The position numbers and the translations under genes are program-made. Of a DNA stretch of 52,216 nucleotides, positions 6,641 to 26,321 are shown piece after piece; position 1 is the stretch's first letter; each line of letters begins with the position of its first letter. Under the pieces are notes generated by a model, which saw nothing but the letters and a program-made list of their open reading frames with translations, made no database searches and had not been told where the DNA came from. The stretch is from Terriglobia bacterium (lineage in GTDB: Bacteria > Acidobacteriota > Terriglobia > Acidiferrales > UBA7541): the NCBI GenBank assembly GCA_020073705.1, contig JAIQES010000030.1, forward strand, positions 1-52,216, in the 5' to 3' direction.

Positions 6641-6711
6641 GGATTTTGTAAGTCTTAGGACTGCGCAAGACCAATCACAAGTCTGCACGGACTGCGCGGG
6701 CTGCCCGGGCT

Positions 6712-9788: not shown

Positions 9789-9791
9789 GTC

Positions 9792-9965: not shown

Positions 9966-10720
9966 ACCGGAGCGCGCTTTTCCATAAACGCCCGCACGCC
10001 TTCGCAAGCGTCCTCAGTTCGCATCAATTGATCGAAGTAAATGTGCTCGATTTCGTCCAACTGCCGCTCGAATTCATCCGTGTGCAATTTCAAAAGAGTC
10101 CGCCGCGTCAAGCGCAGCACATCCGGGCTTAAGCCCTGCAACTCTTGTATCAGCTTACGAGCCCCTTGTTGCACTTCCCCGTTCTTCTCAATGCGCGAAA
10201 CAATCCCCAGCTGCCGGGATTCCTCCGCCGAGATTGTCCTGCCCGTCAAGATCAGGTCCGTCGCCGCCCTTAACCCGCACAGAAGCGGGAGCATAATCGT
10301 CGCGATCGGTGGAAAGCACGCCAGCTTTATCTCCGGCTGGCCGAATTTCGCCGATTCGTCTGCAAGGACAAAATCGCAGAAAATCGCAAGCTCCATTCCG
10401 CCGCCCAGGCAGTGCCCGTGGACGGCGGCAATCGTTACGCAATCTGCTCGAGCCAGCCGGCGAAACACCGCGTGAAAGGCAGTGAGCATCTCGTGGACGC
10501 GCTCCGGCACGTGATCGCTGACCTCGGCGCCCGCCGAAAATGCCTTCGGACCGTTGCCCTGAAAGACGACAAAATCGCACTGCGGCAGAACACTGCCGAG
10601 CACTTCATTCAGCTCGTGCATCATCGAGATGTTGAGGACATTGAGCGGCGGGCGATCCAACGTGATCCAAGCGGTGCGCCCTTCGATTCGAGTCTGCACG
10701 GTACTGTTGTCTTTTGCCAT
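9950..10720 (-). CDS. dch: Probable cyclohexa-1,5-diene-1-carbonyl-CoA hydratase
   Basis: A 256-residue crotonase-fold enzyme. The oxyanion-hole segment GPKAFSAGAEVSDHVPE, the HCLGGGMELAIFCDF segment and SAKFGQPEIKLACFPP resemble dienoyl-CoA hydratases (Dch/BzdW/BamR), which add water to the dienoyl-CoA made by benzoyl-CoA reductase. The usual C-terminal EDACEGVRAFMEKR is present. It lies between boxB and the hydroxyacyl-CoA dehydrogenase on the same strand, so a gene needed for the anaerobic route sits in the aerobic operon. A role as a general enoyl-CoA hydratase for either route is possible. Confidence 0.65.
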   Translation of the reverse strand: MAKDNSTVQTRIEGRTAWITLDRPPLNVLNISMMHELNEVLGSVLPQCDFVVFQGNGPKAFSAGAEVSDHVPERVHEMLTAFHAVFRRLARADCVTIAAVHGHCLGGGMELAIFCDFVLADESAKFGQPEIKLACFPPIATIMLPLLCGLRAATDLILTGRTISAEESRQLGIVSRIEKNGEVQQGARKLIQELQGLSPDVLRLTRRTLLKLHTDEFERQLDEIEHIYFDQLMRTEDACEGVRAFMEKRAPVWRRH

Positions 10721-10874
10721 TTAGTTCCCGCTCCTTTGAAGCGATCAGGCCGACCGAAATCATCGTCACGGCCATTTGATCTTAGCAGCGCAAAGTGCAT
10801 TCGACTTCGCACGCGCTCAGATCCACTCACGCATGGGCCACTGCAGACGGGCTATTTCTCTCTCCCTGCCTCGA

Positions 10875-12299
10875 TCAATTGAACCGAACGTACTGAAAAT
10901 TTAAAGGCTGATTATTAATGCCCCGGCGAGGCGGGGCGATCCAATTTGCGAATTTGCCCGGCTCGACCACCGGGCCGCTCATGAGGGACTGCACATAGGC
11001 GTGGTCCTGGGGACTCGCAAGCCACTCAAACTCGCGCTTCTTCCACGCCTCCTGGCTCAAGACTTCTCCTTGCGGGCTGATGTAGTGTCCGGCAAAATTG
11101 CCGATCTGGCGGTGAAATCCCTTGTGTGGCAAATCCAGCCGGAAGGGAATGCCCGCGCTTTCAATAATCCGGTTCCAACGCCTCAGCCCGGCTTCAATCT
11201 CATGAATATAATCGTCGCGCAACCGTTCGTTTAATGCTGTCAACGCAGGAACATTCTTGCTAACAATCTTATTCCCGATTACCTCCGAAACCGGGTATTC
11301 GGCGTCGCTCAACAAATGATCGTCGCCGATCTTGGTTTCCTCATAGCGTCCCTTAAGGCCGCTCGTGTAGTAATTCGCCGCGTTCGAAGAGACATCTGAG
11401 CCGTAAAGGTCAAGGGTGACGCTATAGTGAAAGTTCAAATACCTCTGAATCGTCTGAAGGTCGATCACGCCCATCGCGCGAACATCGGATGGGTCATCGA
11501 TTTTGTCTTCCTTCATCACCTCGCAGGTCCGCTGAATGATGCGGCCTACCCCTGTCTCTCCAACGAACATGTGATGTGCTTCCTCTGTCAGCATAAACCT
11601 GCAGGTTCGCGCGAGTGGATCGAACCCCGACTCCGCCAGGGCGCACAGCTGAAATTTGCCGTCGCGGTCCGTAAAGAACGTAAACATGAAGAACGCGAGC
11701 CAATCCGGCGTGGGCTCGTTGAACGCGCCTAGAATACGCGGGTTGTCGGCATCGCCAGACCGCCGCTCGAGCAGCGCCTCGGCTTCTTCACGGCCATCAC
11801 GCCCAAAATACCGGTGCAGCAGATATACCATGGCCCAAAGATGACGGCCCTCCTCGACGTTCACTTGGAAGATGTTCCGCAGATCGTACAGGGAAGGAGA
11901 AGACATCCCCAGCATTTTTTGCTGCTCAACCGAGGCTGGTTCCGTATCTCCCTGGGTCACAATGATGCGCCGTAGGGCGGAACGCAGTTCGCCCGGCACT
12001 TCCTGCCAGGCTGGCTGGCCTTTGCGGACTCCGAAGTTGATGGCGCGGATCTCGTCCCGAGGCTGAAGAAAAATTCCCCATCGGTATTCCGGCATCCGCA
12101 CATATCCGAACTGAGCCCAACCGTCCGGCTCCACGCTGGTCGCCGTGCGAAGATAAACTTCCAGAGCGCTGGTATCGCGCGGCCCCGTTTCATACCACCA
12201 GTTGAGGTAACCGGGCTGCCAGTGCTCCAACGCTCGCTGGAGAACGCGATCTCTCCCCAAATCGACGTTATTAGGAATCCTCTCTGTGTAATCAATCAT
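10875..12299 (-). CDS. boxB: Benzoyl-CoA 2,3-epoxidase, oxygenase component BoxB
   Basis: A 474-residue diiron oxygenase that converts benzoyl-CoA to 2,3-epoxybenzoyl-CoA with O2. Two iron-ligand clusters of the carboxylate-bridged diiron type are visible: FQVNVEEGRHLWAM around residues 149-162 and RFMLTEEAHHMFVGE around 235-249. The length equals that of characterised BoxB proteins. Full-length and uninterrupted, it follows boxC by 36 bases, with AGAAGAG before the ATG. The reductase component BoxA, which feeds electrons from NADPH, is not in the window, so another ferredoxin reductase must serve or it is encoded elsewhere. Confidence 0.95.
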   Translation of the reverse strand: MIDYTERIPNNVDLGRDRVLQRALEHWQPGYLNWWYETGPRDTSALEVYLRTATSVEPDGWAQFGYVRMPEYRWGIFLQPRDEIRAINFGVRKGQPAWQEVPGELRSALRRIIVTQGDTEPASVEQQKMLGMSSPSLYDLRNIFQVNVEEGRHLWAMVYLLHRYFGRDGREEAEALLERRSGDADNPRILGAFNEPTPDWLAFFMFTFFTDRDGKFQLCALAESGFDPLARTCRFMLTEEAHHMFVGETGVGRIIQRTCEVMKEDKIDDPSDVRAMGVIDLQTIQRYLNFHYSVTLDLYGSDVSSNAANYYTSGLKGRYEETKIGDDHLLSDAEYPVSEVIGNKIVSKNVPALTALNERLRDDYIHEIEAGLRRWNRIIESAGIPFRLDLPHKGFHRQIGNFAGHYISPQGEVLSQEAWKKREFEWLASPQDHAYVQSLMSGPVVEPGKFANWIAPPRRGINNQPLNFQYVRFN

Positions 12300-12335
12300 G
12301 GCAATCTCTTCTAGGACCAGAAGAACCGGGCGCCC

Positions 12336-14006
12336 TTAGATTCTCTCCCAGTCGAATTTCACGGGCGCGCCCGTGCCATACACCTTCAATGCCCCATTCT
12401 CCCCAACAGCATTCGGGCGAATGAAGATCCAGTTCTGCCACGCCGAAAGGCGGCCAAAAATTCGCGTTTCGAGAGTCTCATGGACGCCGAAGCGCAGATT
12501 CGCCTCGAGTCCGGTTAGAGCGTCAGGCGAAAGCGCGGTGCGGGATTCAACGGCCTGCCGAATTTCATCTCCCCAATCGAGATCATCCGGTGCTGCCGTA
12601 ACAAGCCCTGCCTCCAGGGCTTCGTGAGCCGAAAGTTTTTGCGCAATCTTTCCGCGCAGCATTTCGACTTGCTGAACATCCTCGTAGAAACGTGCCGCCA
12701 CGCGCGAAAGATGATTCACCATGGGCAGGGCTCCGAAGTTCATTCGTGAGAGCGTTACGGCGGCGGCGTTACCTTCCTGGGCGCCATACATGAATGTGCG
12801 GTCTGCGGCCAGAGCGAGTTCCAGCAGGGTGCCCGCGAAGCAAGATCCGGGCTCGATCATTGCGTAAATGGAGCGCGAAGAGACGTCGATCCGCGCGAAT
12901 GCTCGCCGCATCATTCCGAGAACTTCGCGCACAAACCAGTCATCCTGATGGCTGAGGATAAAATCATCGATCGCCAGGACCGCGCCGGGATTCCCGGCTG
13001 TTCTGACAATCCACAATCCCAGATCGAGTTCAGTGGTCCGCAGGCTCAGGATGGCATCATCCAACTCTCGTGCCATCTGCAGCGGCCACCACTTGGCGCC
13101 TGCCGCATAAACCTTTTCTACCGTATCATCGGAAACGGATTCCGGCGCGCGTACGGTAAGAGTTGCTGTGCGCGCATCGCGATTCACCCGGACATCAACA
13201 TATTCGTAATGAAGCCCCGACTCATCGAACGTCCGCTGCAGCGGCGTCAGAGCGATCCCCTTCGCGCGGGCCGGGCGGGTGCTTTGTTCAGCCAGCTTTA
13301 AAGCGCGCTGTTTGACATACTCCGTAAACTGTTGTGGCTTCACCACCTCATCGACAAGTCGCCAGTCTTTTGCCCGCTGACCTCGTACTCCGTCCGGGTT
13401 GGTGCAAAACATATCTGCATGATCTCGGCGCACCTTTCTCTTATCCGTTACCCGAGTCAGACCGCCCGTGCCGGGCAGAACTCCCAGCAGTGGGAGTTCT
13501 GGCAAACTCACCGCAGAGGAACGATCGTCCACGAGGACAATTTCGTCGCACGCGAGTGCCAGCTCATAACCGCCGCCCGCCGTCGTTCCATTGCAAGCAG
13601 CGAGAAATTTGAGCCCAGAATGCACACTTGAGTCCTCGATCCCGTTGCGCGTCTCATTCGTAAATTTGCAGAAGTTCACTTTCCAGGCGTGCGAGGAAAG
13701 CCCGAGCATATAAATATTCGCCCCGGAGCAAAAAATGCGGTTCTTTGCGCTGGTCAGGACCACCGAGCGAATTTCCGGGTGCTCAAACCGGATTCGCTGC
13801 AAGGCGTCCTGCAATTCAATGTCAACCCCGAGATCGTAAGAGTTCAACTTCAGCTTGTAGCCCGGCCGTATTCCGCCGTCTTCGGCGACATCCATCGTCA
13901 AAGTCGCTACGGGGCTGTCGAAGGAAAGCCGCCAGTGCCGGTACCGGGATGGATCCGTCTGAAAATCCACGCCATTCAATTTTGCCTCGGCCCCTTGACG
14001 GACCAC
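12336..14006 (-). CDS. boxC: 2,3-epoxybenzoyl-CoA dihydrolase BoxC
   Basis: A 556-residue fused crotonase-like protein matching BoxC, which opens the epoxide ring by hydrolysis to 3,4-dehydroadipyl-CoA semialdehyde and formate. Recognisable segments are VVLTSAKNRIFCSGANIYML, FLAACNGTTAGGGYELALAC and the C-terminal LSAWQNWIFIRPNAVGENGA. The start is GTG at 14006, with AGGAGG 5 bases upstream; it begins 9 bases after the boxR stop. Length and both crotonase halves agree with known BoxC. The next enzyme, the semialdehyde dehydrogenase BoxD, is not seen here. Confidence 0.95.
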   Translation of the reverse strand: MVRQGAEAKLNGVDFQTDPSRYRHWRLSFDSPVATLTMDVAEDGGIRPGYKLKLNSYDLGVDIELQDALQRIRFEHPEIRSVVLTSAKNRIFCSGANIYMLGLSSHAWKVNFCKFTNETRNGIEDSSVHSGLKFLAACNGTTAGGGYELALACDEIVLVDDRSSAVSLPELPLLGVLPGTGGLTRVTDKRKVRRDHADMFCTNPDGVRGQRAKDWRLVDEVVKPQQFTEYVKQRALKLAEQSTRPARAKGIALTPLQRTFDESGLHYEYVDVRVNRDARTATLTVRAPESVSDDTVEKVYAAGAKWWPLQMARELDDAILSLRTTELDLGLWIVRTAGNPGAVLAIDDFILSHQDDWFVREVLGMMRRAFARIDVSSRSIYAMIEPGSCFAGTLLELALAADRTFMYGAQEGNAAAVTLSRMNFGALPMVNHLSRVAARFYEDVQQVEMLRGKIAQKLSAHEALEAGLVTAAPDDLDWGDEIRQAVESRTALSPDALTGLEANLRFGVHETLETRIFGRLSAWQNWIFIRPNAVGENGALKVYGTGAPVKFDWERI

Positions 14007-14015
14007 AGCGTCCTC

Positions 14016-14945
14016 CTACTCGAAATTCGCTTGCAACGCTACCTTCAACTTGGTAAAACTCTCTTCCACAGAATCGCCCGAAGTATCGAGGCACATATCC
14101 GCTTTCCGGTACAATGGCTCTCGGGCCTCCATAATCCGGCGCAAATCTTCCATGGCCTGATCATTCCCGGCCATGGCACGTAAATCGCCTTGCGCGATCA
14201 CGCGGGACATGTGCTCGTCGGGCTGTGCCTTGACCCAAACGGTGTAGCAGTTGGAAAGAAGATAATCGTACGTCTCTTTTTCCGACACGACGCCGCCGCC
14301 GACCGAAAGGACCGCGCGCTTATTTTCGTGAAGCACCCTTTCCAGGGTCCGCCTCTCGATGCCCCGGTAACCGGACTGCCCGTAAAGCGAGATGATCTCT
14401 GCAAGAGGCATTCCCGTATCCTTCTCGATCTCGCGATCCAGCTCAACGAAGGGAATGTGCATCTCTTCTGCGCTTAGGCGCGATCCCAGTGTTGACTTGC
14501 CCGCGCCTCGCAGGCCAATGAGCGCAATGCGCATTCGCCGCGCCTTTTCTTGATGGCCAAAATCGCGCATGAGGCGAAACACCACATCTTCCAGGCGGTG
14601 GGCCGGCAGACGTTCGAGGAAACGCCGAATCAATCGCATTTCCACAGACTCTTCAGCGTCACGGGAAAATAGTTCGGCGAGGGACACGTTGACCGCGGCG
14701 GCGATCCTTCGGAGCAAAACGATCGAGATATTTCCTTCCCCAGCCTCAAGCTGCGCAAGATGGCGCTCAGACAGGTCTGCTTCATGCGCCATCATCTTGC
14801 GAGTCATACCGCGGCGGTTGCGTAACTCCCGAACGCGTTTGCCAAGAGAAAGCAAGAAATCTTCTTCCGAGACCAGGATGGCTCGGTCTGCGGCAGCGAC
14901 TTTAGGATCCGTGACGGCCCGATGAATGTTTTCGTGTAGCGCCAT
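14016..14945 (-). CDS. boxR: BoxR/BzdR-type regulator (HTH plus shikimate-kinase-like domain)
   Basis: A 309-residue regulator with two domains. An XRE-type helix-turn-helix lies at about residues 30-90 (LGKRVRELRNRRGMTRKMMA, LSERHLAQLEAGEGNIS). A shikimate-kinase-like domain follows from about residue 140, with a P-loop GLRGAGKST and GGGVV. In Azoarcus this family binds benzoyl-CoA and releases repression of box and bzd genes. The ATG at 14945 is preferred: an in-frame GTG at 14972 would lie inside the -35 box. No ribosome-binding site precedes the ATG, and the -10 box ends 7 bases before it, so the transcript is probably leaderless. It is the first gene of the box operon. Confidence 0.92.
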   Translation of the reverse strand: MALHENIHRAVTDPKVAAADRAILVSEEDFLLSLGKRVRELRNRRGMTRKMMAHEADLSERHLAQLEAGEGNISIVLLRRIAAAVNVSLAELFSRDAEESVEMRLIRRFLERLPAHRLEDVVFRLMRDFGHQEKARRMRIALIGLRGAGKSTLGSRLSAEEMHIPFVELDREIEKDTGMPLAEIISLYGQSGYRGIERRTLERVLHENKRAVLSVGGGVVSEKETYDYLLSNCYTVWVKAQPDEHMSRVIAQGDLRAMAGNDQAMEDLRRIMEAREPLYRKADMCLDTSGDSVEESFTKLKVALQANFE

Positions 14946-14979
14946 TGCACTATAGTACGTAAATGCTGGCACCAGTCAA
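14946..14979 (-). promoter_or_regulatory. boxR promoter, leaderless, with overlapping operator
   Basis: On the minus strand TTGACT (14979-14974), a 16-base spacer and TACTAT (14957-14952) form a good promoter. The expected start of transcription falls on the A of the boxR ATG at 14945. The motif TGCACTATAGTA (plus strand, 14946-14957) covers the -10 and the start point, so a protein bound here would block transcription. The same TGCACTATA occurs twice at the bcr promoter. Autoregulation by BoxR is inferred. Confidence 0.55.
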
Positions 14980-15381: not shown

Positions 15382-16404
15382 CTAGACCAACTGCCGAGCC
15401 ACTGATAGCCGCAGCTTGCTCATGTCGTCGCCGCGCAGCTCGCGCAGTGCGTAGGTCACGAAATCGCGCGTGACGTGTTTCCGCCATGCTAACGTAAAAT
15501 CCGTATTGTCCATCGGTCGAGCCGGCACTGCCGCCAGTTCACCGGCGCGGGCAATCGCCTCGTCTGTCAGACGCTCGCCGACCAGCGATGCGGCGGCCGC
15601 CGACGCCTCGATGGGCTGGGAGGCCACGGCGCCAAGAACAATGCGGGCTGCCTCGACCGAACCGTCGGGTGCCAGCTTGAGCGCAGCGGCGACCGACAGC
15701 ACCGGGAAATCGAACGAACCTCGCCGCCGCAACTTCCAGTACGTGCTGCGCCACCCGTCCAGACGGGGGACGTCAATGGCTGTGAGGACTTCTGTTGGCT
15801 GCCGCGTCAGATAATGGATGCCATCGTTGCGGTAGAGGTCGGCGAGCGCCATAGCGCGCGTCTTCTCGGCGCTCACCAGGGTGATCGTCGCCCCCAGCGC
15901 GAGCAGCGCCGGCGCTGTGTCGGTCGATGACACGGCGAGGCACTTCGGGCTTGACGTGGCCACCCAGCAGGTCTTGCCGTCCTTTTTCATGCAGAAGTCG
16001 ATCGCCTTGCGCCATTCGTAGTTCTGATCGTAGTAGTTGCAGCGTGTGTCCAGGCATAGGTTGCCGCCGAGCGTGCCCACATTGCGCAGATGCGGTGTGG
16101 CCACCTGTACGGCCGCCTGCCGCAAGGCGGCGTAGGGACCGGGAATTTTCAGGTACCCGACCAGTTCCGTAAGCGTAAGGCCGGCGCCAATGCAAAGACC
16201 GTCGCCATTGGTAATCCCCTTTAGTTCCGCGACCTGCCGAAGTCCCACCAGCGTACCCGGCACTTGCTGCCGCCGCTTCATGTTGGGCAATACGTCGGTT
16301 CCACCGGCGACCAGCATCGCATCGCGGGGATTTGCCGCCAGCATCTCGGCGGCTTCGCGGACGGTTCGCGGCGCCAGATACCGGAAATAGGGCAACCTCA
16401 TCAT
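15382..16404 (-). CDS. hcrB: 4-hydroxybenzoyl-CoA reductase beta subunit (FAD and extra [4Fe-4S])
   Basis: A 340-residue FAD-binding subunit of the molybdenum hydroxylase family. The FAD loop MLVAGGTDVLPNMK and the segment LRNVGTLGGNLCLDTRC are present. Between residues about 118 and 160 lies an insert with four cysteines (CLDTRCNYYDQ, DFCMKKDGKTCW, SPKCLAV). It corresponds to the additional [4Fe-4S] cluster found only in 4-hydroxybenzoyl-CoA reductases, and separates this enzyme from ordinary xanthine or CO dehydrogenases. The complex removes the para hydroxyl of 4-hydroxybenzoyl-CoA to give benzoyl-CoA. Its start overlaps the hcrA stop. Confidence 0.93.
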   Translation of the reverse strand: MMRLPYFRYLAPRTVREAAEMLAANPRDAMLVAGGTDVLPNMKRRQQVPGTLVGLRQVAELKGITNGDGLCIGAGLTLTELVGYLKIPGPYAALRQAAVQVATPHLRNVGTLGGNLCLDTRCNYYDQNYEWRKAIDFCMKKDGKTCWVATSSPKCLAVSSTDTAPALLALGATITLVSAEKTRAMALADLYRNDGIHYLTRQPTEVLTAIDVPRLDGWRSTYWKLRRRGSFDFPVLSVAAALKLAPDGSVEAARIVLGAVASQPIEASAAAASLVGERLTDEAIARAGELAAVPARPMDNTDFTLAWRKHVTRDFVTYALRELRGDDMSKLRLSVARQLV

Positions 16405-18878
16405 GATTGCACTACCTCTGGGGCGTGCGACTTGCGCGCCAACTCCTTGCTTGGTCTTGGCGGGGCGTTAATGGCTTTCCCATCGCCGCCTTCCCACGGC
16501 GGCGGCACCTGCAGGGTTTCGGGCCAGGGTACGTCGGGGAAATGTGCCGGGCCGTAGCGTGCGGGCTTGCCTGCCGCCTTCGCTTCCAGCGCTTTGATGA
16601 TCTTTTCTGGTGTGATGGGCACCTCGTCGATGCGCACGCCGATCGCGTCGTACACCGCGTTCGCCACGGCGGGCATCACCGGCAGCAGCGGGCCTTGCCC
16701 GACTTCTTTCGCACCAAAAGGCCCGCTAGGATCTGGGTGCTCGACCAGTTCCGTGATCACCTCTGGCATGTCGAGGGCCGTCGGGCTCTTGTACTCGAGG
16801 ATCGACGGGAACTTATGTACAAGCGCGTGCGATAACCGCTTCGGCAGCCGGCGAAATTCCTGCTCTTCCATCAGCGCCTCACCGAGGCCCATGTACACGC
16901 TGCCTTCGACCTGCCCGCGCGCCAGCGTCGGGTTGAGCGCGCGGCCAATATCATGCGCGATCCATACACGCGTCACCTGAATCCACCCGGTCGATGCGTT
17001 GACTTCGACCTCCACAACGGCGGCGGAGTACGAGTAGGTTGGGGATGGTCCAGCGCCACTTCCCTTAAACCGCGCCACCGCTTTCGGCGGTGTGTACGAG
17101 CCGGTGGTGCCCAGGGTGCCGAATATCGCCTCGGCGAGGCAGACCGCTTCGCTGAAGCTGACCCCCTTAGCTGGGTCCTCCGCATCGAACACGCGCCGTT
17201 CGGCGAACACCAAGCGGCCCTTCGGAACCTCCAGCTTGCGCGACACCCCTTCGGCGAGGAACTCACGCGCCCGCTCGGCAGCCTGAATCGCGGCGTTCCC
17301 CATCATCAGCGTGACGCGACTGGAGTACGAGCCAAGGTCCACCGGCGTCAAATCGGTGTCCCCAGTCACCGAGCGAATGTCCATCGGATCGATGCCGAGT
17401 ATTTCGGCTACGCATCCAACCAGGACATCATCGGAGCCTTGGCCGATTTCGGTCGCGCCGCAGAACGCCGCGACGCCGCCACTGCGATCCAGCTTCAGCT
17501 GAACGCCAGAATGCGGCATTTCGTTGTAATAGATCGGCAGCCCCGCACCCGACATATAGGACGAGCAGGCCAATCCAAGGCCGCGGCCCCGCGGCAGCTT
17601 GCGGAACCGGTTCCTCCAGTCCGAGGCCGCCACAACGCGACGAATGCACTCGGCCAGGCCGGTGGTGCTCACTTGCAAGTAGTTCGCCGTAAGCGTGTCG
17701 GGCTTTTCGACGATGCGCAGACGCAACTCCGCGGGATCGATCGCGAGCTTTTCCGCGATTTTGTCCAGCTGCACTTCCTGACCGAACCGGCCTTGCGGCG
17801 TGCCGTGGCCCCGCTTCGGACCGCACGGCGGCTTGTTTGTAAATACCCGGCAACCTTCAAATTTATACGTCGGGATGTGGTACGTCAGCGTCTGCAATGC
17901 GCCGGTGTAGAACGTGCTCACAACACCATACGATCCGTAGGCGCCACCGTCGAGCACGGTTTTCAGGTGGACCCCGGTGATCGTGCCGTCACGCTTCACG
18001 CCTGTCTTGAATCGCATCAGGACCGGATGGCGCCCGCGATGGCAGTAGAACACTTCTTCTCGTGTCAGGCAGATCTTGACCGGCCGATCCAACAGCAGTG
18101 CCGCCTTACACACAACGATTTCGTGGTTGAACGGATCGCACTTGCCGCCGAAGCCGCCGCCGTTGGGCATGGCGACGACGCGAATATGCGCGGCCCGCAT
18201 CTCCAGCGCTCTGGCAAGCGCGCGGTGCACGTAGTGCGGAACCTGCGTACTCGACCACAGTACGAGTTTCCCGTCGGGATCTTTGGCCGCCACGGCAGCG
18301 TGCTGCTCGATCGCCAAGTGCGTGTTGCCCTGATAGAAAAATGTGTCTTCGAACACCTCGTCGGCGCCAGCGAACGCTTTCTCCACATCCCCGAAACCAA
18401 GAGAAACGGCTTTGTGGATGTTGCCCTGGTTGCCGTATTCGTGGATGCGCGGATCCTCGTGTTCGAGACTTTCTTCCGGCGTGCTGAAGGTTCGCAGAGG
18501 CTCATATTCCACCTCGATTAAATCCAGCGCTTCGAACGCGGTCAGCTCGTCCCGGGCAATTACGGCCGCCACCGGATCGCCCACAAAACGCACGTGTGTC
18601 GGCTCCAGCGGGTACTCGTCCTGGCTGACCGGAAGAATGCCGTAGGGCACCTTGAAGTCCTTGCCGGTGAGCGCCAGATGCACGCCCGGATGCGCCAAAG
18701 CGCGGGTCGCATCGATCCGTACGATTCGCGCATGAGGCACGCTGGAACGTAGCAGCTTACAATGCAGCATGCGAGGCAGCATGATGTCGTCGGCAAACTT
18801 CGTCTGGCCAGTAACTTTTGCCCGCCCATCGACGCGACGGCGCGGCTTACCGATAAGGTGCAGCTTGGTATCGTTCAT
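16401..18878 (-). CDS. hcrA: 4-hydroxybenzoyl-CoA reductase alpha subunit (molybdopterin)
   Basis: An 825-residue molybdopterin-binding large subunit. Seen in order: IGKPRRRVDGRAKVTGQTKF, VRFVGDPVAAVIA, NGGGFGGKCDPFNHEIV, the cofactor-region ATEIGQGSDD and the catalytic Glu in GPFGAKEVGQGPLLPV. It is about 55 residues longer than typical HcrA, because of a Pro-rich C-terminal tail after PEKIIKALEAKA. It lies 2 bases after hcrC and overlaps hcrB. A 59-base segment (17281-17339) recurs exactly at the left edge of the window. Confidence 0.93.
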   Translation of the reverse strand: MNDTKLHLIGKPRRRVDGRAKVTGQTKFADDIMLPRMLHCKLLRSSVPHARIVRIDATRALAHPGVHLALTGKDFKVPYGILPVSQDEYPLEPTHVRFVGDPVAAVIARDELTAFEALDLIEVEYEPLRTFSTPEESLEHEDPRIHEYGNQGNIHKAVSLGFGDVEKAFAGADEVFEDTFFYQGNTHLAIEQHAAVAAKDPDGKLVLWSSTQVPHYVHRALARALEMRAAHIRVVAMPNGGGFGGKCDPFNHEIVVCKAALLLDRPVKICLTREEVFYCHRGRHPVLMRFKTGVKRDGTITGVHLKTVLDGGAYGSYGVVSTFYTGALQTLTYHIPTYKFEGCRVFTNKPPCGPKRGHGTPQGRFGQEVQLDKIAEKLAIDPAELRLRIVEKPDTLTANYLQVSTTGLAECIRRVVAASDWRNRFRKLPRGRGLGLACSSYMSGAGLPIYYNEMPHSGVQLKLDRSGGVAAFCGATEIGQGSDDVLVGCVAEILGIDPMDIRSVTGDTDLTPVDLGSYSSRVTLMMGNAAIQAAERAREFLAEGVSRKLEVPKGRLVFAERRVFDAEDPAKGVSFSEAVCLAEAIFGTLGTTGSYTPPKAVARFKGSGAGPSPTYSYSAAVVEVEVNASTGWIQVTRVWIAHDIGRALNPTLARGQVEGSVYMGLGEALMEEQEFRRLPKRLSHALVHKFPSILEYKSPTALDMPEVITELVEHPDPSGPFGAKEVGQGPLLPVMPAVANAVYDAIGVRIDEVPITPEKIIKALEAKAAGKPARYGPAHFPDVPWPETLQVPPPWEGGDGKAINAPPRPSKELARKSHAPEVVQS

Positions 18879-18880
18879 CG

Positions 18881-19405
18881 TTATGCTTCCTCTTGGCCTG
18901 CCGAGCGCGGACCACGTTCGACTTCGACACCTGCAGCGCCCGATTGAATCGCAGCCTCCACGGCCTCGAAGATTTGCTGATAACCGGTGCAGCGGCAGAG
19001 ATTTCCGGCGAGCGCCTCACGAATCTGATCGCGTGTGGGATGAGAATGCTCGTCCAGCAGAGCCTTCGCCGTTATCAGAAATCCGGGTGTGCAATATCCA
19101 CACTGTGCGGCGCCGAGATCCGCAAACGCCTCCTGCAATGGATGGAGACGCCCATCGGTCACCAGACCTTCGATCGTAGTGACACGGCGACCATCACATT
19201 CGACCGCCAGGACCAAACAGGACAACACCGGAAGATCGTCGAGCAGGACGGCACATGCGCCGCATTCGCCGAGTTCGCAGCCGTGCTTGGTCCCGCAAAG
19301 GTTTAAATCCTCGCGGAGAACCTCGAGCAGCGTCTTGTATGGCGCGAAGCTGACTTCGACCGGCTCGTTGTTTACCTTCAGTGTAATGTGCGCCTGCTCC
19401 GTCAT
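18881..19405 (-). CDS. hcrC: 4-hydroxybenzoyl-CoA reductase gamma subunit (two [2Fe-2S])
   Basis: A 174-residue iron-sulfur small subunit of the molybdenum hydroxylase family. The plant-type [2Fe-2S] motif CGTKHGCELGECGACAV with a later cysteine (LSCLVLAVE) is followed by the second cluster domain, CGYCTPGFLITAKALL and NLCRCTGYQQI. It passes electrons between the flavin subunit and the molybdenum centre. It overlaps the TetR gene by four bases (ATGA) and precedes hcrA by 2 bases, so all four genes are probably one transcript. Confidence 0.95.
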   Translation of the reverse strand: MTEQAHITLKVNNEPVEVSFAPYKTLLEVLREDLNLCGTKHGCELGECGACAVLLDDLPVLSCLVLAVECDGRRVTTIEGLVTDGRLHPLQEAFADLGAAQCGYCTPGFLITAKALLDEHSHPTRDQIREALAGNLCRCTGYQQIFEAVEAAIQSGAAGVEVERGPRSAGQEEA

Positions 19406-20067
19406 GTCTGACTCCCTTTAACCCGCCCATCGGGGCCGGTCAGGCCGCCCACTGCGTAATCAGCGACAATCTGTGCAACATGCGCCACCGATTCAGGCCC
19501 TTCGGGCCGGTACCAATGGGCGGTCCAATTGAGTGCGCCCAAAAACGCCCGCGTCATGACCATCGCGTCGCCGCGCCGCAACTCCCCGCGGCGCATTCCA
19601 GCGGCCACCAGCGCCCTCACACCGTGTTCGTAAGCATCGCGTTTCTTCACGATGGCCTTGCGCATGGCTCGCGGGAGCGCGTCCACCTCGATGTGCGCGG
19701 ATGCTCCTTCGACTTCGCTGATGACACACAACACATGCGCGGCCGCCAAGTCGCGCAGCCGCGCGCTGACCGGTCCGCGGGCCTTGCGCGCAATCGCCAA
19801 TGCTGCGCTCAGCCGGTCCAGCGCTCCATCCTGACAGAAGAAAAGAATCTCATCCTTGCTTTGGAAATAGTGGTACAGGTTTCCCGGCGAAAGGTCCGCA
19901 GCAAGGGCGATCTCGCGCATCCCGGAAGACGCATATCCCCGCTTGCGAAACACACTGGACGCCGCGCGCAGAATTTCCAGGCGTGTCTTTGCCCGCCGCC
20001 GAGCGCGCCTTTGTTCGCCGCGCACGCTATGTGAACGCCTATTCAATAATTGAACGATTGTTCTCAT
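19402..20067 (-). CDS. TetR-family transcriptional regulator
   Basis: A 221-residue TetR-type regulator. The N-terminal helix-turn-helix (SSVFRKRGYASSGMREIALA, SPGNLYHYFQSKDEIL) is typical; the C-terminal part is the variable ligand domain. The ATG at 20067 is preferred to the TTG at 20091, which lies in the promoter. It is the first gene of the hcr operon and coupled to hcrC, so it most likely senses 4-hydroxybenzoyl-CoA or a related thioester and controls its own operon; that ligand is inference. Confidence 0.85.
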   Translation of the reverse strand: MRTIVQLLNRRSHSVRGEQRRARRRAKTRLEILRAASSVFRKRGYASSGMREIALAADLSPGNLYHYFQSKDEILFFCQDGALDRLSAALAIARKARGPVSARLRDLAAAHVLCVISEVEGASAHIEVDALPRAMRKAIVKKRDAYEHGVRALVAAGMRRGELRRGDAMVMTRAFLGALNWTAHWYRPEGPESVAHVAQIVADYAVGGLTGPDGRVKGSQT

Positions 20068-20079
20068 TTTTGCGTTCCC

Positions 20080-20108
20080 ATTCTGACTCAACGGAATTTG
20101 TATGTCAA
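20080..20108 (-). promoter_or_regulatory. Promoter of the TetR-hcr operon
   Basis: On the minus strand a perfect TTGACA (20108-20103), a 17-base spacer and CAGAAT (20085-20080). The start of transcription would fall only a few bases before the ATG at 20067. No clear palindromic operator is visible. Confidence 0.5.
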
Positions 20109-20215: not shown

Positions 20216-20746
20216 ATGAAAACGCTGGGGAAAATTATCGTTGGAATATTGGTTTGCTTGGTCTTAGTGCTGCTGGTGCTGCGCATCACCGGCTTCGAAC
20301 CTCGAGGGTGTCCAAATATTTATGTCTCTTGGACGTGTAGATTACCCGGCTTGTGGTTGAAAGGGGATCTGGTTACCACGCCGGTCACCGACTGGTCGTT
20401 CACCGACAAAATTCCTACGGTCAAGCTTCAGACCCACACCTGGTATCTGCTTCCTCACTCGGTAACAATTGGCTGTGTTTACTATAACGGCCACCTCTAT
20501 CTAAGTTCCATTTATATGCGTCCCGGAGTTAAGTACCGCTGGAATGAGGATGTGATTCGTGATCCGCGCGTGCGACTGAAGATCGGGAATCAATTGTATG
20601 ATCGCACCTTATCCTATGTCACCGATCCGGCCGAAAAAGCAGCCGTGTTCCAGGCCAAGTTCAAAAAATACTCGGCCATTGAGCCGCTTTTCCACAATGT
20701 GTCGCCAGATACGACATCGAATGTCTTTCGCGTGCCGGATAACTAG
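20216..20746 (+). CDS. Membrane-anchored split-barrel-like protein, array copy 1 (type A)
   Basis: A 176-residue protein with one N-terminal membrane segment (about residues 5-24, IIVGILVCLVLVLLVL) and a periplasm- or cytoplasm-facing domain. The domain pattern PTVKLQTHTWYLLPHSVTI, YYNGHLYLSS and RDPRVRLKIGNQLYDRT recalls small flavin- or deazaflavin-binding split-barrel proteins (PNPOx/DUF385-like), but this is a resemblance, not an identification. It is longer than the other copies because of about 12 extra residues after the anchor (CPNIYVSWTC). Type A central part (YMRPGVKYRWNEDV) and C-terminus SNVFRVPDN, shared with copy 5. GGAGCC lies just before the ATG. Confidence 0.75.
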   Translation: MKTLGKIIVGILVCLVLVLLVLRITGFEPRGCPNIYVSWTCRLPGLWLKGDLVTTPVTDWSFTDKIPTVKLQTHTWYLLPHSVTIGCVYYNGHLYLSSIYMRPGVKYRWNEDVIRDPRVRLKIGNQLYDRTLSYVTDPAEKAAVFQAKFKKYSAIEPLFHNVSPDTTSNVFRVPDN

Positions 20747-20855
20747 GAGCGCGTTCTAGGAATCTGCTTTGGAATGAGTTACGCATGGAAAGTGTCCGTC
20801 TTTGTTGGCGGGTCATCGTTCGCAGAAGGGTCATCCTTACATGGAGGAGCCACCC

Positions 20856-21347
20856 ATGAAAACCCTGGGGAAAATTATCGTTGGAATACTGGTTTGCCTG
20901 GTCTTAGTGCTGCTTGTGCTGCGCATCACCGGCCTTGATCCTAAGGGACGCAGACCCGGTTTGTGGTTGAGGGGGAATGTGGTGACCACACCAGTCGCCG
21001 ACTGGTCGTTCACCGATAAGATTCCCACGATCATGATTCAGACCCGCACTTGGTATCTGCTTCCTCACTCAGTAACAATTGACTGTAGTACCTATAAGGG
21101 TCAGCTCTATCTGAGTACCATTTATCGTTCGGCAGTTGAGTACTCCCTCGGCAGAAACTGGAACACCAATTTGCTTCGTGATCCGCACGTGCGCATAAAG
21201 ATCGGAAACCAATTGTTCGATCGTACCGTGACCTTAGTTACCGATCCGGCCGAAAAAGCAGGTGCGCTGGAGGCCAAAGCGAAAAAATACCCGGAACTGA
21301 AAATTAATCCAAATATGCTGGCGACTGTATTTCACGTACTGGACTAG
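20856..21347 (+). CDS. Membrane-anchored split-barrel-like protein, array copy 2 (type B)
   Basis: A 163-residue paralogue. The N-terminal anchor is nearly identical to copy 1, then TGLDPKGRRPGLWLRGNVVT. The variable central part reads YKGQLYLSTIYRSAVEYSL before a conserved RDPHVRIKIGNQLFDRT and VTDPAEKAGALEAKAKKY. It ends in TVFHVLD, which groups it with copy 3. The ATG at 20856 is chosen because GGAGG precedes it and all copies begin with the same MKTL. Function unknown; a redox or binding role is suggested only by fold resemblance. Confidence 0.75.
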   Translation: MKTLGKIIVGILVCLVLVLLVLRITGLDPKGRRPGLWLRGNVVTTPVADWSFTDKIPTIMIQTRTWYLLPHSVTIDCSTYKGQLYLSTIYRSAVEYSLGRNWNTNLLRDPHVRIKIGNQLFDRTVTLVTDPAEKAGALEAKAKKYPELKINPNMLATVFHVLD

Positions 21348-21458
21348 GAGCGCGTCCGAGGAATCTGCTTTCGAGGAAGATACGCATGGAAATTTCCCAG
21401 GGCCATGTTGGTGGGTCATTATTCGCAGAGGGGTCATCCTTGTATGAAGGAGCCAGCC

Positions 21459-21953
21459 ATGAAAACGCTGGGGAAAATTATCGTTGGAATACTGGTTTGT
21501 TTGGTCTTAGCACTGCTGGTGCTGCGCGTCACCGGCCTCAATCCTAAGGGGCGCCGGCCCGGTTTGTGGCTAAGTGGGGATGTGGTGACCACGCCGGTCG
21601 CCGACTGGTCGTTCACTGACAAATATCCAAACATCATGATTCAGACCCGAACGTGGTATATGATTCCACATTCAGTAACGATTAATTGTCTTTCCGCTAA
21701 TGGCCAGCTTTATCTATCTACCGCTATTCCCGCGGGGCTTCAGTATCCCCACGACAGAAACTGGCACGCCAATGTGGCTCGTGATCCGCACGCGCGTCTG
21801 AAGATCGGAAATCAATTGTATGATCGGACCTTATCCGTTGTCACCGACCCGGCCGAAAAAGCAGCCGTGATGCAGGCCAGAGAGAAAAAATATCCTCAAC
21901 TGAAAGTGCCAGCAAATGGGACACTGGTTGTATTTCACGTACTGGATAATTAG
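21459..21953 (+). CDS. Membrane-anchored split-barrel-like protein, array copy 3 (type B)
   Basis: A 164-residue paralogue with the MKTLGK-type anchor. The central part is ANGQLYLSTAIPAGLQYPHD, unlike any other copy, followed by RDPHARLKIGNQLYDRTLS and an ending VVFHVLDN close to copy 2. In the otherwise invariant entry segment IPTIMIQTRTWYLLPHSV it has YPNIMIQTRTWYMIPHSV. AAGGAGCC precedes the ATG. No frameshift or stop, so it appears functional. Confidence 0.75.
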   Translation: MKTLGKIIVGILVCLVLALLVLRVTGLNPKGRRPGLWLSGDVVTTPVADWSFTDKYPNIMIQTRTWYMIPHSVTINCLSANGQLYLSTAIPAGLQYPHDRNWHANVARDPHARLKIGNQLYDRTLSVVTDPAEKAAVMQAREKKYPQLKVPANGTLVVFHVLDN

Positions 21954-22050
21954 GAGCGCGTCCGGGGAATCTGCTTTCGAGTGAGTTACGCATGGAAAGT
22001 TTCCGGGTCATTGTTGGCAGAAGGGTCGTCCTTACATTGAGGAGCCAGGC

Positions 22051-22545
22051 ATGAAAACGCTATTGAAAATTGTTGCAGCCACACTGGTTTGCCTGGTCTT
22101 AGTGCTGCTGGCGCTGCGCGTCACCGGCCTCGATCCTAAGGATCGCCGGCCCGGTTTGTGGCTGAGGGGGGATGTGGTGACCACGCCGGTCGCCGACTGG
22201 TCGTTCGCCGACAAATATCCAACGCTCCTGATTCAGACCCGCACCTGGTATCTGCTTCCTCACTCGGTAACAATTCGCTTTGTTTGCTATAAGGGCCAGC
22301 TCTATCTGCATACCGTTTCTCCTAAGGGAGCGCCATTTCCCAAGGACAAAAGCTGGACGACAAATCTGATCCGCGATCCGCACGTGCGCATAAAGATCGG
22401 AAACCAATTGTTCGATCGCACCGCGACCCTTGCTACCGACCCGGCGGAAATGGCAGGCCTGATGGATGCCAGAGCGAAAAAAACCCCCGGCGTGAAGCAC
22501 CCGAGTGATTCGATAACTTATTGGTTTCACGTGTTGCCCGAATAG
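22051..22545 (+). CDS. Membrane-anchored split-barrel-like protein, array copy 4 (type C)
   Basis: A 164-residue paralogue with a different anchor start, MKTLLKIVAATLVCLVL. The central part YKGQLYLHTVSPKGAPFPKD and the ending ITYWFHVLPE define type C, shared with copy 6. The conserved PVADWSFADKYPT and RDPHVRIKIGNQLFDRT are present. The spacer after it differs from most spacers but matches the sequence after copy 6, so gene type and downstream spacer travel together. Confidence 0.75.
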   Translation: MKTLLKIVAATLVCLVLVLLALRVTGLDPKDRRPGLWLRGDVVTTPVADWSFADKYPTLLIQTRTWYLLPHSVTIRFVCYKGQLYLHTVSPKGAPFPKDKSWTTNLIRDPHVRIKIGNQLFDRTATLATDPAEMAGLMDARAKKTPGVKHPSDSITYWFHVLPE

Positions 22546-22665
22546 GCGCGTGTCCGAGGAATGCGCTTATCAGCGATTTACGCATTGCAGGCCGTTGATT
22601 TTTCATGCGCGTTTGCTCAGCAGGGGGCAACACCCGCTATCTGACCTACAGTCAAGGAGCCGGTT

Positions 22666-23154
22666 ATGAAAACGCTGTTGAAGGTTGCTGGAGCCATTCT
22701 GGTGTGCTTGGTCCTACTGCTGCTGGTGCTGCGCATCACCGGTCTCGATCCTAAGGGTTTGCGACCCGGTTTGTGGCTGACAGGGAATGTGGTTACCACG
22801 CCGGTCGCCGACTGGTCGTTCGCCGACAAGATTATGACGGTCCAGCTTCAGACCCGAACCTGGTATCTACTTCCTCACTCGGTAAACATTGGCTGTGTTT
22901 ACTATAACGGCTATCTCTATGTGAGTTCCGTTCATATGCGTCCGGGAGTCAAGTACCGCTGGAACGACGATGTGCTTCGTGATCCGCGCGTGCGCCTGAA
23001 GATCGGAAACCAATTGTTCGATCGTACCGTGACCTTAGTCACCGATCCGGCCGAAAAAGAAGCCGTGCTGCAGGCCAAAGCGAAAAAATACTCGGACGCG
23101 AAAGTGTTGTCGCAGAATCTGACATCGAATGTGTTTCGGGTACCGGAAAATTAG
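22666..23154 (+). CDS. Membrane-anchored split-barrel-like protein, array copy 5 (type A)
   Basis: A 162-residue paralogue joining an MKTLLK-type anchor (MKTLLKVAGAILVCLVLLLL) to a type A domain: YYNGYLYVSSVHMRPGVKYR and ending SNVFRVPEN, as in copy 1. This combination of anchor and domain is the clearest sign of recombination within the array. It lacks the extra loop of copy 1. Its upstream spacer is unlike the others but still ends in AAGGAGCC before the ATG. Confidence 0.75.
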   Translation: MKTLLKVAGAILVCLVLLLLVLRITGLDPKGLRPGLWLTGNVVTTPVADWSFADKIMTVQLQTRTWYLLPHSVNIGCVYYNGYLYVSSVHMRPGVKYRWNDDVLRDPRVRLKIGNQLFDRTVTLVTDPAEKEAVLQAKAKKYSDAKVLSQNLTSNVFRVPEN

Positions 23155-23265
23155 GAGCGCGGCCGAGGAATTTGTTTTCGAGTGAGTTAGGCATGGAAAG
23201 TTTTCAGGTCTTTGCTGGCGGGTCGTTGTTCGCAGAAGGGTCATCGTTACATTGAGGAGCTAACC

Positions 23266-23760
23266 ATGAAAACGCTGGGGAAAATAATCGTGGGAATCCT
23301 GGTTTGCTTGGTCCTACTGCTGCTCGTGCTGCGCATCACCGGCCTCGATCCTAAGGATCGCCGGCCCGGTTTGTGGCTGAAAGGAGATGTGGTGACCACG
23401 CCGGTCTCCGACTGGTCGTTCACCGACAAGATTCCATCGATCATGATTCAGACCCGCACCCGGTATCTGCTTCCTCACTCAGTAACAATTTACTGTGTTA
23501 GTCATAACGGCCAGCTCTATCTGCACACCGTTTTTCTTAAGGGAGTGCCATTTCCCAACGGCAGAAGCTGGGTAGCAAGTCTGATCCGCGATCCGCACGT
23601 GCGCATTAAGGTCGGAAACCAATTGTTCGATCGTACCGCGACCGAGGCTACCGATCCGGCGGAAATAGAACCCCTGATGGATGCCTATAAGAACAAATAC
23701 CCCAAGTCGAAGTTCCCGAGTGATTCGACAACTTATTGGTTCCACGTATTGCCTGAATAA
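23266..23760 (+). CDS. Membrane-anchored split-barrel-like protein, array copy 6 (type C)
   Basis: A 164-residue paralogue with the MKTLGK anchor and a type C domain (HNGQLYLHTVFLKGVPFPNG, ending TTYWFHVLPE). In the invariant TRTWYLLPHSV segment the Trp is replaced by Arg (TRTRYLLPHSV), the only copy with this change. It is the last copy; the sequence after its stop still resembles the spacer after copy 4 for about 50 bases before the array ends. Confidence 0.75.
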   Translation: MKTLGKIIVGILVCLVLLLLVLRITGLDPKDRRPGLWLKGDVVTTPVSDWSFTDKIPSIMIQTRTRYLLPHSVTIYCVSHNGQLYLHTVFLKGVPFPNGRSWVASLIRDPHVRIKVGNQLFDRTATEATDPAEIEPLMDAYKNKYPKSKFPSDSTTYWFHVLPE

Positions 23761-23916
23761 GCGCGTGTCCGAGAAATTTGCTTGCCAGCGATTTACGCAC
23801 TGCAGATTGGCGATTCTTTACGGGTAGGAAGTTCGTTCTTACTTGATTTGGGCGCTCTTCTTCTCAAGGACACAAGTTGCGCGAGTTGTGCCAGCGATGG
23901 TTCGGGGTTACAAGGC

Positions 23917-24840
23917 ATGAAGGTAGTCATCACAGGCGCCAATAGCGCCGTCGGCCAGGCTATCCTGCGATGTGCAGCGGTACTCGAAGTGCCACAAGGG
24001 GCGACCCCAAACACGTTTGTGGCAGCGGTTCGCTCCGACCGTGCGCTCGAAGAGGTCCGGCGTCTGTTGGGCAGCGGGAACAGCGTGGCGCGAATCTCGT
24101 ACCAGGATCCCAGCAGTCTCAGCAAAGCTTTTGAGGGGGCCTCTGCGGTGATCCACCTCGCAGGGGTTCTCGTCGAACGGCCGGGTTCGACGTATGAGGA
24201 AGCAAATGTTGCACCGGCTCATAGCGTCGTGGAAGCCGCCAAGCGGAGCGGGGTGAAGAAACTCGTTTTGGTCAGTGCAATGGGAGCCGATGAGACATCT
24301 GCAAACCGCTACTACCGCAGCAAGGGGCAGGCAGAAGCTTTGGTGCGCGCGTCCGGTCTATGCTATACAGTGCTGCGGGCTCCGCTATTGCTAGGCCCCG
24401 GAACGGAAGGCGCGGCGGCATTGGAGCGTAACGCCAGCCTGAAGAAGGCCAAGCTAATCGGCGGCGGTCGCAATCTTCAGCAGCCTCTCTATGTGGACGA
24501 CCTGGCACGGGCTGCCATCCATGCTAGCGATCTTTCCGTTGCCAACAACCAAACTTTAGACTTAGTGGGACCCATCTCACTGCCGGACCGGGAAATCGTG
24601 GAGCGAGCTGCTCATCTGCTGGGGCGCCAAGTCCAGATCCAGTCGATTCCGAAAGGATTGGCACGGCTGGCGCTGGCAATTCGTCAACTCGCGGGGCGCC
24701 CAGGATTTTCGCTAGACGCTCTCGAGGTAATCACGGCCGATACGAATCTGGACCCGCGGCCGGCTGCGAGTGCACTCGGAATCCAGTTGACAGGAATCGA
24801 CGAAATGATCAAGAACACCTTACGGCGAGGACAAAAATGA
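23917..24840 (+). CDS. NAD(P)-binding atypical short-chain dehydrogenase
   Basis: A 307-residue Rossmann-fold protein. It has the N-terminal VVITGANSAVGQAIL motif, VIHLAGVLVERPGS and YYRSKGQAEALV with the Tyr-x-x-x-Lys pair. It belongs to the NAD-binding epimerase/NmrA-like or NDUFA9-like atypical SDRs, which act on sugar, isoprenoid or quinone-type substrates or as assembly factors; the substrate is unknown. The ATG at 23917 is chosen because the family's glycine-rich strand begins there; a longer frame from 23782 adds unrelated residues. Its stop overlaps the start of the next membrane-protein gene (ATGA). Confidence 0.75.
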   Translation: MKVVITGANSAVGQAILRCAAVLEVPQGATPNTFVAAVRSDRALEEVRRLLGSGNSVARISYQDPSSLSKAFEGASAVIHLAGVLVERPGSTYEEANVAPAHSVVEAAKRSGVKKLVLVSAMGADETSANRYYRSKGQAEALVRASGLCYTVLRAPLLLGPGTEGAAALERNASLKKAKLIGGGRNLQQPLYVDDLARAAIHASDLSVANNQTLDLVGPISLPDREIVERAAHLLGRQVQIQSIPKGLARLALAIRQLAGRPGFSLDALEVITADTNLDPRPAASALGIQLTGIDEMIKNTLRRGQK

Positions 24841-25829
24841 CGGAGACCAGCCAATCCACCAGCCTTCCCTCTACCACAGGCAGGAAAAAGTCCAAGCTGT
24901 GGCAGCGCCTGTTGCCATTTCTGATTACGGCAGCCTGCTTCGCCTATCTCTACACCCGTCTGGACCGCGGCGCTGCGGCGGAGGGCAGCCGGCTGCTTCC
25001 CTACCTGCTAAAAAGCTTTGAGAATGTCAGTTGGACTCGTTGGCTGGCCTTGATGATTCCGTACTGCGTCCTTTTTCTCCTGTTCGACAGCCTGGTTGTT
25101 TGGAGTGTGATCGACTGGTTCAACGCCAAAATCCGTTACGCCGATATCTTGCCTATTCGTGCCAGCGCTTACATCCTCTCTCTTGTGAACGAGCAGGTCA
25201 GTAAAGGCGCCATTGCACTCTATCTGAACCGGCGAGACGGGGTGCCCGGTTGGGAGATCGGTTCCAGCATGCTTTTCATCATGTTTTGCGAGTATTACAG
25301 CCTGATGCTGTGGGCCACGATCGGCGTGCTGTTGCGGTGGGGTAGTTTCCATCCGGCCTTTCACCTGATCCCCTGGATTGCCTTGGCCTCCGCTGCGTTC
25401 TTCGTGCTATTCCATCTATTCTTCAGCGGGAAAATCGGGTCGGGGATCGCGTTGCGCGACCGCCCTATCTTCCGGGCGTTCCGGCTGGCGAAAGTCTGGC
25501 AGTATGGGGCTGTAATTACGATGCGCGCGCCTCCGGTGATCGCTGGTGTGGTCGTATATACGCTGGCTTTGAGACTCTTTGGGGGCACGGTGAGCTTCGG
25601 TGAAATGCTGGGATATCTGCCGGTGATTTTCTTTGGAGCAGCCATGCCCGGACCGATGCACTCCGTGGCGATCCTTTTCTGGGTCCTGCTCTTTCCCGAA
25701 AAGCCGGGGCAGATGACTGCCTTCGGGTTCGTCATGCACAATTTCTTTATCTTCTTTAACGCCGCAATCGGCCTGCTATTTCTCCGGCGGGCGACTCGGG
25801 AGCTCTTTGAAGACCCTCCTAAACATTAG
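24837..25829 (+). CDS. Polytopic membrane protein, flippase-like (UPF0104/LPG-synthase type)
   Basis: A 330-residue integral membrane protein with about eight hydrophobic segments, starting at LLPFLITAACFAYLY. Overall size and the topology with charged loops (VNEQVSKGAIALYLNRRDG) resemble the membrane domain of lysylphosphatidylglycerol synthases and dolichol-mannose-type flippase-like proteins. Coupled to the preceding dehydrogenase by a four-base overlap, suggesting a shared lipid or glycan pathway. Its 3' end overlaps the convergent phosphatidyltransferase gene by 54 bases. Confidence 0.65.
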   Translation: MTETSQSTSLPSTTGRKKSKLWQRLLPFLITAACFAYLYTRLDRGAAAEGSRLLPYLLKSFENVSWTRWLALMIPYCVLFLLFDSLVVWSVIDWFNAKIRYADILPIRASAYILSLVNEQVSKGAIALYLNRRDGVPGWEIGSSMLFIMFCEYYSLMLWATIGVLLRWGSFHPAFHLIPWIALASAAFFVLFHLFFSGKIGSGIALRDRPIFRAFRLAKVWQYGAVITMRAPPVIAGVVVYTLALRLFGGTVSFGEMLGYLPVIFFGAAMPGPMHSVAILFWVLLFPEKPGQMTAFGFVMHNFFIFFNAAIGLLFLRRATRELFEDPPKH

Positions 25830-26321
25830 ACGCTGGCCCATGGATACCAGCGTGCTGAGAACCAATGTCCAGACAAGCAGAGTGAGCCAGGGATGTAGGA
25901 AGCGCAGTCCCATGCGAATGAGGATGTCCATGCAGAGCGGAACGAAGTAAAGGATGCCGTTGTAACGGCCGAGTTGGCTTTTGCGCAGACGGCTCTGCCC
26001 ATGAACCCAGTAGGAATCGATGACATACTGGGCAAAGGCCGCCGTGATCAGAATTGGCAGGATCCATGGGAACGCGCCGCGCAGGGCGCCGGCAAACAGT
26101 CCGCAGGTGACGAAGAGGAAGTCGGAAGCGTGATCGAAGGTCCCGCCAAGCGCGCTCACCCTACCTGTTCGACGTGCGATGGCCCCGTCTAGAAAATCCG
26201 TTGCCAGCGCCACCACCATCGCGAGCAAAGCAAAAACCGCATGGCGCAGATCTCCTCCGGCCATGAAGAACGCAAACGGAATCACTAGAAGCAGGCGAAT
26301 AGCCGTCAGTGCATTAGCCAT
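25776..26321 (-). CDS. CDP-alcohol phosphatidyltransferase
   Basis: A 181-residue membrane enzyme with the complete family motif in DFLDGAIARRTGRVSAL and GGTFDHASD, that is D-G-x2-A-R-x8-G-x3-D-x3-D. It joins a CDP-activated lipid to an alcohol head group or the reverse (phosphatidylglycerolphosphate or related synthesis). About six hydrophobic segments. Convergent with and overlapping the preceding flippase-like gene; both are lipid-related, so the overlap may be functional as well as spatial. Confidence 0.85.
   Translation of the reverse strand: MANALTAIRLLLVIPFAFFMAGGDLRHAVFALLAMVVALATDFLDGAIARRTGRVSALGGTFDHASDFLFVTCGLFAGALRGAFPWILPILITAAFAQYVIDSYWVHGQSRLRKSQLGRYNGILYFVPLCMDILIRMGLRFLHPWLTLLVWTLVLSTLVSMGQRLMFRRVFKELPSRPPEK

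Follow-up and report, generated by a model that had tools for sequence, protein, structure and literature searches.

The window analysed here, a 52,216-nucleotide stretch of DNA from a Terriglobia soil bacterium of the phylum Acidobacteriota (contig JAIQES010000030.1, assembly GCA_020073705.1), carries a tandem array of six open genes on the + strand (positions 20216-23760), which encode proteins of 162-176 residues with one predicted N-terminal transmembrane helix ahead of a barrel domain. F420 is a rare redox cofactor, a deazaflavin. We lean towards the view that the products of the array are membrane-anchored split barrels, that they belong to an uncharacterised family resembling FDOR-A, and that this family works with F420; both its co-occurrence and its adjacency with F420 biosynthesis genes suggest that a redox system linked to F420, so far unstudied, operates at the cell membrane. 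No description of the family was found in the literature.

A preliminary description of this DNA had reported six tandem copies, all open, of a mosaic family of membrane-anchored proteins in two anchor types, and these points stand: six open reading frames (ORFs) occupy the array, and direct-repeat families with a repeat unit of 592-640 bp align all six copies. The elements of the array are as follows.

20216-20746, + strand: array copy 1, type A, with a 10-residue insert before PGLWL (ORF, translation and alignment; an orthologue lies in the sister genome G001)
20747-20855, + strand: an example of the ~110-nt repeated spacer, which bears the ribosome-binding site for the next copy
20856-21347, + strand: array copy 2, type B, whose protein was modelled by AlphaFold2 (AF2) (ORF, alignment and model)
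21459-21953, + strand: array copy 3, type B (ORF and alignment)
22051-22545, + strand: array copy 4, type C, the sole copy over the cut-off of Pfam F420H2_quin_red (24.9 vs 22 bits)
22666-23154, + strand: array copy 5, a type A core on the LLK anchor (ORF and alignment)
23266-23760, + strand: array copy 6, type C (ORF and alignment)

In the alignment, copies 2-6 share 56-74% protein identity with copy 1, and the two anchors are LGKIIVGI (copies 1, 2, 3 and 6) and LLK (copies 4 and 5). Spacers were said to follow the gene type, which is true only in part: those 3′ of copies 1, 2, 3 and 5 are 77-88% identical, and those 3′ of copies 4 and 6 (type C) are different. The core was described as a common RDPxVRxKIGNQLxDRT, but the motif varies in copies 3 (RDPHARLKIGNQL) and 6 (RIKVGNQL). 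A search for internal promoters found no promoter-like site on the + strand of the array region, and the overall number of such sites (3) was not above that in shuffled sequences (4.0), which speaks neither for nor against co-transcription of the copies. Two further, dispersed copies (C28:93168 and C37:13846) are present in the same genome, whose assembly comprises 78 contigs with a total length of 3.79 Mb. Among 299 genomes of the class, this is the only one with more than two copies side by side, the others having at most two, and the array was therefore rejected as a general acidobacterial trait.

The AF2 model of copy 2, built with 55 relatives, has a mean predicted local distance difference test score (pLDDT) of 90.5 and predicts a helix at residues 2-25 followed by a split β-barrel. 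Foldseek ranked the F420-bound structure 3r5y first (E 2.2e-5), and the top match of VIA-align was Ddn (3r5p; Z 12.3, root-mean-square deviation 2.3 over 105 residues, 20% identity), with 111 chains at Z≥8 whose top rows were all split barrels, in agreement with a six-stranded split-barrel fold. FMN-, heme- and NimA-type split barrels were also returned; the highest Z among them was 11.7 (1vl7), and heme proteins such as HutZ reached about 10-11. Since these score close behind, the cofactor cannot be told from the fold alone. When the PDB was searched with a profile, five matches only came back, all of Ddn/FDOR type at E 0.39-0.68 (three Ddn, the Ddn-like 3r5z, and 8d4w, which is the FDOR-A1 enzyme MSMEG_2850 (PMC8498797)), while hhalign against three acidobacterial FDOR-A proteins gave 96.6%. 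Weak profile similarity to DUF2255 (PF10012) was seen in 14 of the 55 members, but the array copies fall below its cut-off and its definition includes no membrane anchor.

The putative pocket can be compared with that of mycobacterial Ddn (Rv3547; an F420H2-dependent menaquinone reductase of FDOR-A, PF04075, TIGR00026), in which the post-β3 loop (76-85) touches the phosphate and the deazaflavin, W88 and N91 contact the ribityl chain and the proximal glutamate, respectively, and R54, T56 and R60 of the β1-β2 hairpin hold the F420 tail (PMC3267046). The variable loop of the array aligns with the post-β3 loop; W102, the equivalent of W88, is present in 55/55 members of the alignment, N or D occupies position 105 (the equivalent of N91) in 46/55, and in 52/55 there is a basic residue no more than three positions from W102. 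The preliminary hint that structure prediction might reveal a flavin or F420 pocket is thus supported, in that the split barrel is closest to F420-binding Ddn/FDOR-A and its variable loop corresponds to the F420-contacting loop of Ddn. Besides the fold, the ribityl-site tryptophan and the N/D at the tail-proximal site, the two share membrane association (PMC7032734) and F420-producing hosts. However, identity is only about 20%, the GRKSG tail-binding hairpin of Ddn is missing, and, compared with Ddn, the array family has a true transmembrane helix, a domain that is probably on the outer face, an additional conserved entry segment (PGLWLxG..TPVxDWSF), and different hosts and gene context.

The distribution of the family closely tracks that of F420 biosynthesis. 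Among 61 relatives, it is present in 7 genomes, 7/7 of which have cofG (28/61 overall); in the class sample, the 15 of 299 genomes with the family, which include two weak matches, all have cofG (76/299 overall), with a hypergeometric probability of 4e-10 when relatedness is ignored. The genomes of other family loci, whose cofG-matching hosts include Gammaproteobacteria, Myxococcota and Rokubacteria, have a cofG match in 18 of 19 cases (17 above the cut-off), and with the 14 of these that were new to the count the combined total is 28/29. Moreover, cofG and/or cofH lie 2-10 kb from a family gene in at least 10 genomes: cofG is within about 6 kb on the same contig in G001, G004, G011, G023, G054, G158, G265 and G283, loci L025, L032 (which lies in G283), L035 and L038 also show cofG/cofH proximity, cofG directly follows the family gene in L038, and both genes of G001 were confirmed against NCBIfam. 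In the genome of the window, cofG, cofH and cofD are found together at C6, away from the array, with an apparent cofC beside them (identified by eye from the sequence) and cofE at C48; judged from this full gene set, the host should be able to make F420.

As separate observations, two gammaproteobacterial metagenome-assembled genomes (L055 and L056) have a distant family member together with a full-length cofG; F420 genes are unusual in Gammaproteobacteria. Near another distant member there is a luciferase-like reductase (L057:3203-4252) that, judged by eye, resembles LLM-class F420-dependent enzymes.

With regard to topology, the helix has more positive charge on its N-terminal than on its C-terminal side in 45/55 members, which favours a barrel outside, and distant members start with lipobox-like N-termini (LVSC in L048, LLSC in L057). 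On such sequence features, the barrel probably lies on the external side of the membrane. One precedent exists for F420 beyond the cytosol, Rv0132c/fHMAD (PMC3478262), which resembles the proposed system in placing F420 at the cell envelope; it differs in being a luciferase-like dehydrogenase with a Tat signal instead of a membrane anchor, whereas the array family is a split barrel.

Several observations weigh against the F420 reading. The GRKSG-type β1-β2 hairpin for the F420 tail is absent (0/55 members) and is kept in 3/3 acidobacterial FDOR-A proteins; the single regular-expression match for its motif, TPGRGS in L029, falls in the entry segment, not in the hairpin. Five of the six copies remain below the PF04075 cut-off that copy 4 passes, and none of the six passes that of TIGR00026. 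In the class sample, 61 of the 76 F420-capable genomes are without the family, which is accordingly not a general F420 enzyme, and the Planctomycetota genome L050 has the family and no cofG match. For the array copies themselves, flank charge gives no guidance, since in all of them but copy 1 the charges balance or the bias is reversed. Furthermore, we know of no supply of reduced F420 for a reductase on the outer face, and the precedent mentioned above is a Tat-exported dehydrogenase (PMC3478262, PMC8498797). Because the F420-tail hairpin, one defining feature, is absent, the family is not filed as an FDOR-A member; it is FDOR-A-like, a variant of that group.

The missing hairpin, the close scores of FMN, heme and NimA-type barrels, and conserved P-H-S and R-D-P motifs that could serve another ligand would all suit split barrels that bind some other cofactor (FMN or heme) or none, so that the link with F420 would be merely genetic. 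This explanation is unlikely, although it deserves serious attention, as it accounts neither for the presence of cofG in nearly all host genomes across phyla nor for the adjacency of cofG/cofH, and the PDB profile matches are of Ddn/FDOR type. A conserved gene neighbourhood also counts in favour of the F420 reading, and three of its genes lie directly downstream of the array.

23917-24840, + strand: an NmrA-like NAD(P)-binding reductase (Pfam), with start ATG 23917 as in its homologues; a conserved cassette partner
24837-25829, + strand: a 330-residue membrane protein with an MprF-flippase-like fold, likewise a conserved cassette partner
25776-26321, - strand: a CDP-alcohol phosphatidyltransferase, convergent, a conserved neighbour

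All three are found with the family at about 15 loci, in which the NmrA-like gene adjoins it with 58-74% identity, and a close orthologue of the membrane protein occurs in exactly the same 7/61 genomes as the family. In about ten genomes, the family gene, the NmrA-like reductase, the MprF-like protein and cofG/cofH are found together; the window keeps the cassette downstream of the array, and cofG/cofH are part of it in most relatives. The AF2 model of the membrane protein (pLDDT 82.9) returned MprF for all top five PDB matches of Foldseek (probability 1.00, TMq 0.60-0.65, best E 0.012), and LPG_synthase_TM (PF03706) matches 5 of 18 of its orthologues. According to the model, the partner has the fold of the MprF flippase domain; it is without the lysyl-transferase domain.

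A flippase-like partner, the neighbouring FO-synthesis genes cofG/cofH, and a pocket-facing tryptophan that is invariant although the tail-binding hairpin has been lost might also indicate a non-catalytic binder or carrier of F420 or FO at the membrane, which might, for instance, store, export or deliver it together with the MprF-like protein. We consider this quite unlikely, considering that such a role has no obvious need for six paralogues with variable loops and that the NmrA-like reductase in the cassette suggests chemistry.

Two further observations concern the cassette loci. In G001, genes of the menaquinone route (MqnE, a UbiA-family prenyltransferase and UbiX; L085:14299-17317) are located beside the F420/cassette cluster, a single case that fits quinone chemistry. 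In G011, the family copy beside the cassette (L111:1381-1980, G011:C125) has lost its start and part of its anchor behind an in-frame stop and is apparently decaying.

Anchor, core, loop and C-terminus combine as a mosaic across the six copies, and a PHI-like test detected recombination among them (0.319 observed vs 0.390 ± 0.011 shuffled, p≤0.0005). Copy 5 is a patchwork in nearest-relative windows, its anchor being nearest to copy 4 or 6, its loop to copy 1, and its core and C-terminus to copy 2. The type order A, B, B, C, A, C proposed at first is only partly reflected in the tree: the C pair (copies 4 and 6) is recovered as a clade (support 100/99), and the A pair (copies 1 and 5) falls into one group (97/98) that also holds one dispersed copy of the same genome and two genes from other species, but the B pair (copies 2 and 3) is not recovered as a clade. 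Copies 2, 3, 4 and 6 constitute a clade without any gene from the sister species (98/81). On the other hand, copy 1 groups with an orthologue from the sister species G001 (99/93) and a second G001 gene groups with the dispersed copy at C28 (98/93), and part of the paralogy must therefore predate the species split; a recent one-step expansion was rejected on the same grounds. Synonymous divergence between copies is mostly dS 0.35-0.6 (0.22 for copies 4 and 6), although dating by dS is unsafe because of gene conversion.

The loop and the C-terminus are the most variable parts of the protein. Among the six copies, pN/pS is 0.33 for the anchor, 0.35 for the entry segment, 0.46 for the core, 1.00 for the loop (bootstrap 0.62-1.88) and 0.94 for the C-terminus; in two orthologue pairs with the sister species, it is 0.84 for the loop and 0.67 for the C-terminus. 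The frame is constrained, and loop and tail evolve almost freely or diversify weakly; positive selection on the loop is not supported, as its ratio is not above 1. These values bear on the earlier idea of an actively diversifying surface family, in which the loop would confer specificity towards phage or other partners. The variability of loop and C-terminus, recombination among copies and the probable outer-face location would suit such a family, but pN/pS does not exceed 1 in paralogues or orthologues, copy 1 has an orthologue in the sister species, neither PADLOC nor PHROGs gave a match at E≤0.1, and the metabolic context of the cassette is kept across species; active diversification and the phage link were not upheld, and we regard this explanation as highly improbable. 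Just as little probability is assigned to neutral amplification, that is, redundant copies generated by unequal crossing-over under relaxed constraint around a single-copy function: only 1/299 genomes has more than two adjacent copies and the ratios of loop and C-terminus are near 1, but all six copies are open despite their synonymous divergence, and anchor, entry segment and core have pN/pS of 0.33-0.46.

An aromatic degradation locus does lie beside the array, as had been noted. The genes at 15382-20091 (- strand) encode 4-hydroxybenzoyl-coenzyme A (CoA)-reductase-like subunits, which score 793 bits against TIGR03194 and thus stay under the cut-off (995), and this upstream region includes a TetR regulator divergent from the array. 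Farther upstream (531-14972, - strand) are the aerobic box genes BoxB (862 bits) and BoxC (928 bits), both over their cut-offs, a BoxR-type helix-turn-helix-shikimate kinase, and four genes resembling subunits of ATP-dependent class I benzoyl-CoA reductase, which are below the equivalog cut-offs; by gene content, aerobic and anaerobic aromatic routes stand side by side in this locus. A functional link with the array was rejected, since the upstream genes do not travel with the family, whereas the downstream genes and cofG/cofH recur; the sole upstream-gene match near any family member is a ferredoxin-type small subunit (45%) at L038.

Taking F420-dependent chemistry as the preferred reading, the barrel would sit at the external face of the membrane and hold F420 or FO in its groove, from which a hydride may pass to a substrate dissolved in the membrane; a quinone, or a lipid on which the cassette works, is the likeliest candidate. 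The variable post-β3 loop and the C-terminal segment may shape the pocket, in which case the paralogues would differ in substrate or cofactor binding. The array may have grown through tandem duplication of ~600-bp units, with gene conversion subsequently reshuffling the copies. Given that no supply of reduced cofactor is known for an outer-face enzyme, a dehydrogenase or carrier role, or a barrel facing inside, would be alternatives. The complete picture, an outer-face F420-dependent redox system that consists of transmembrane-anchored split barrels with their own cofactor-gene cassette and a flippase-like partner, that is distributed across Acidobacteriota and several other phyla, and that in one lineage includes a recombining six-copy array with differing pocket loops, is proposed tentatively, as possible rather than probable.

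Acidobacteria are abundant soil bacteria. Their F420 genes are known but were without experimental study according to a 2021 FEMS review, whose list of FDORs is confined to Actinobacteria and Chloroflexi (PMC8498797). If the above interpretation is true, Acidobacteria would have in this family a first specific candidate for the role of F420, and it would be, after Rv0132c, the second possible case of F420 acting at the cell envelope. In addition, the array provides natural variants of the pocket loop on a nearly constant frame, which would make substrate choice directly testable.

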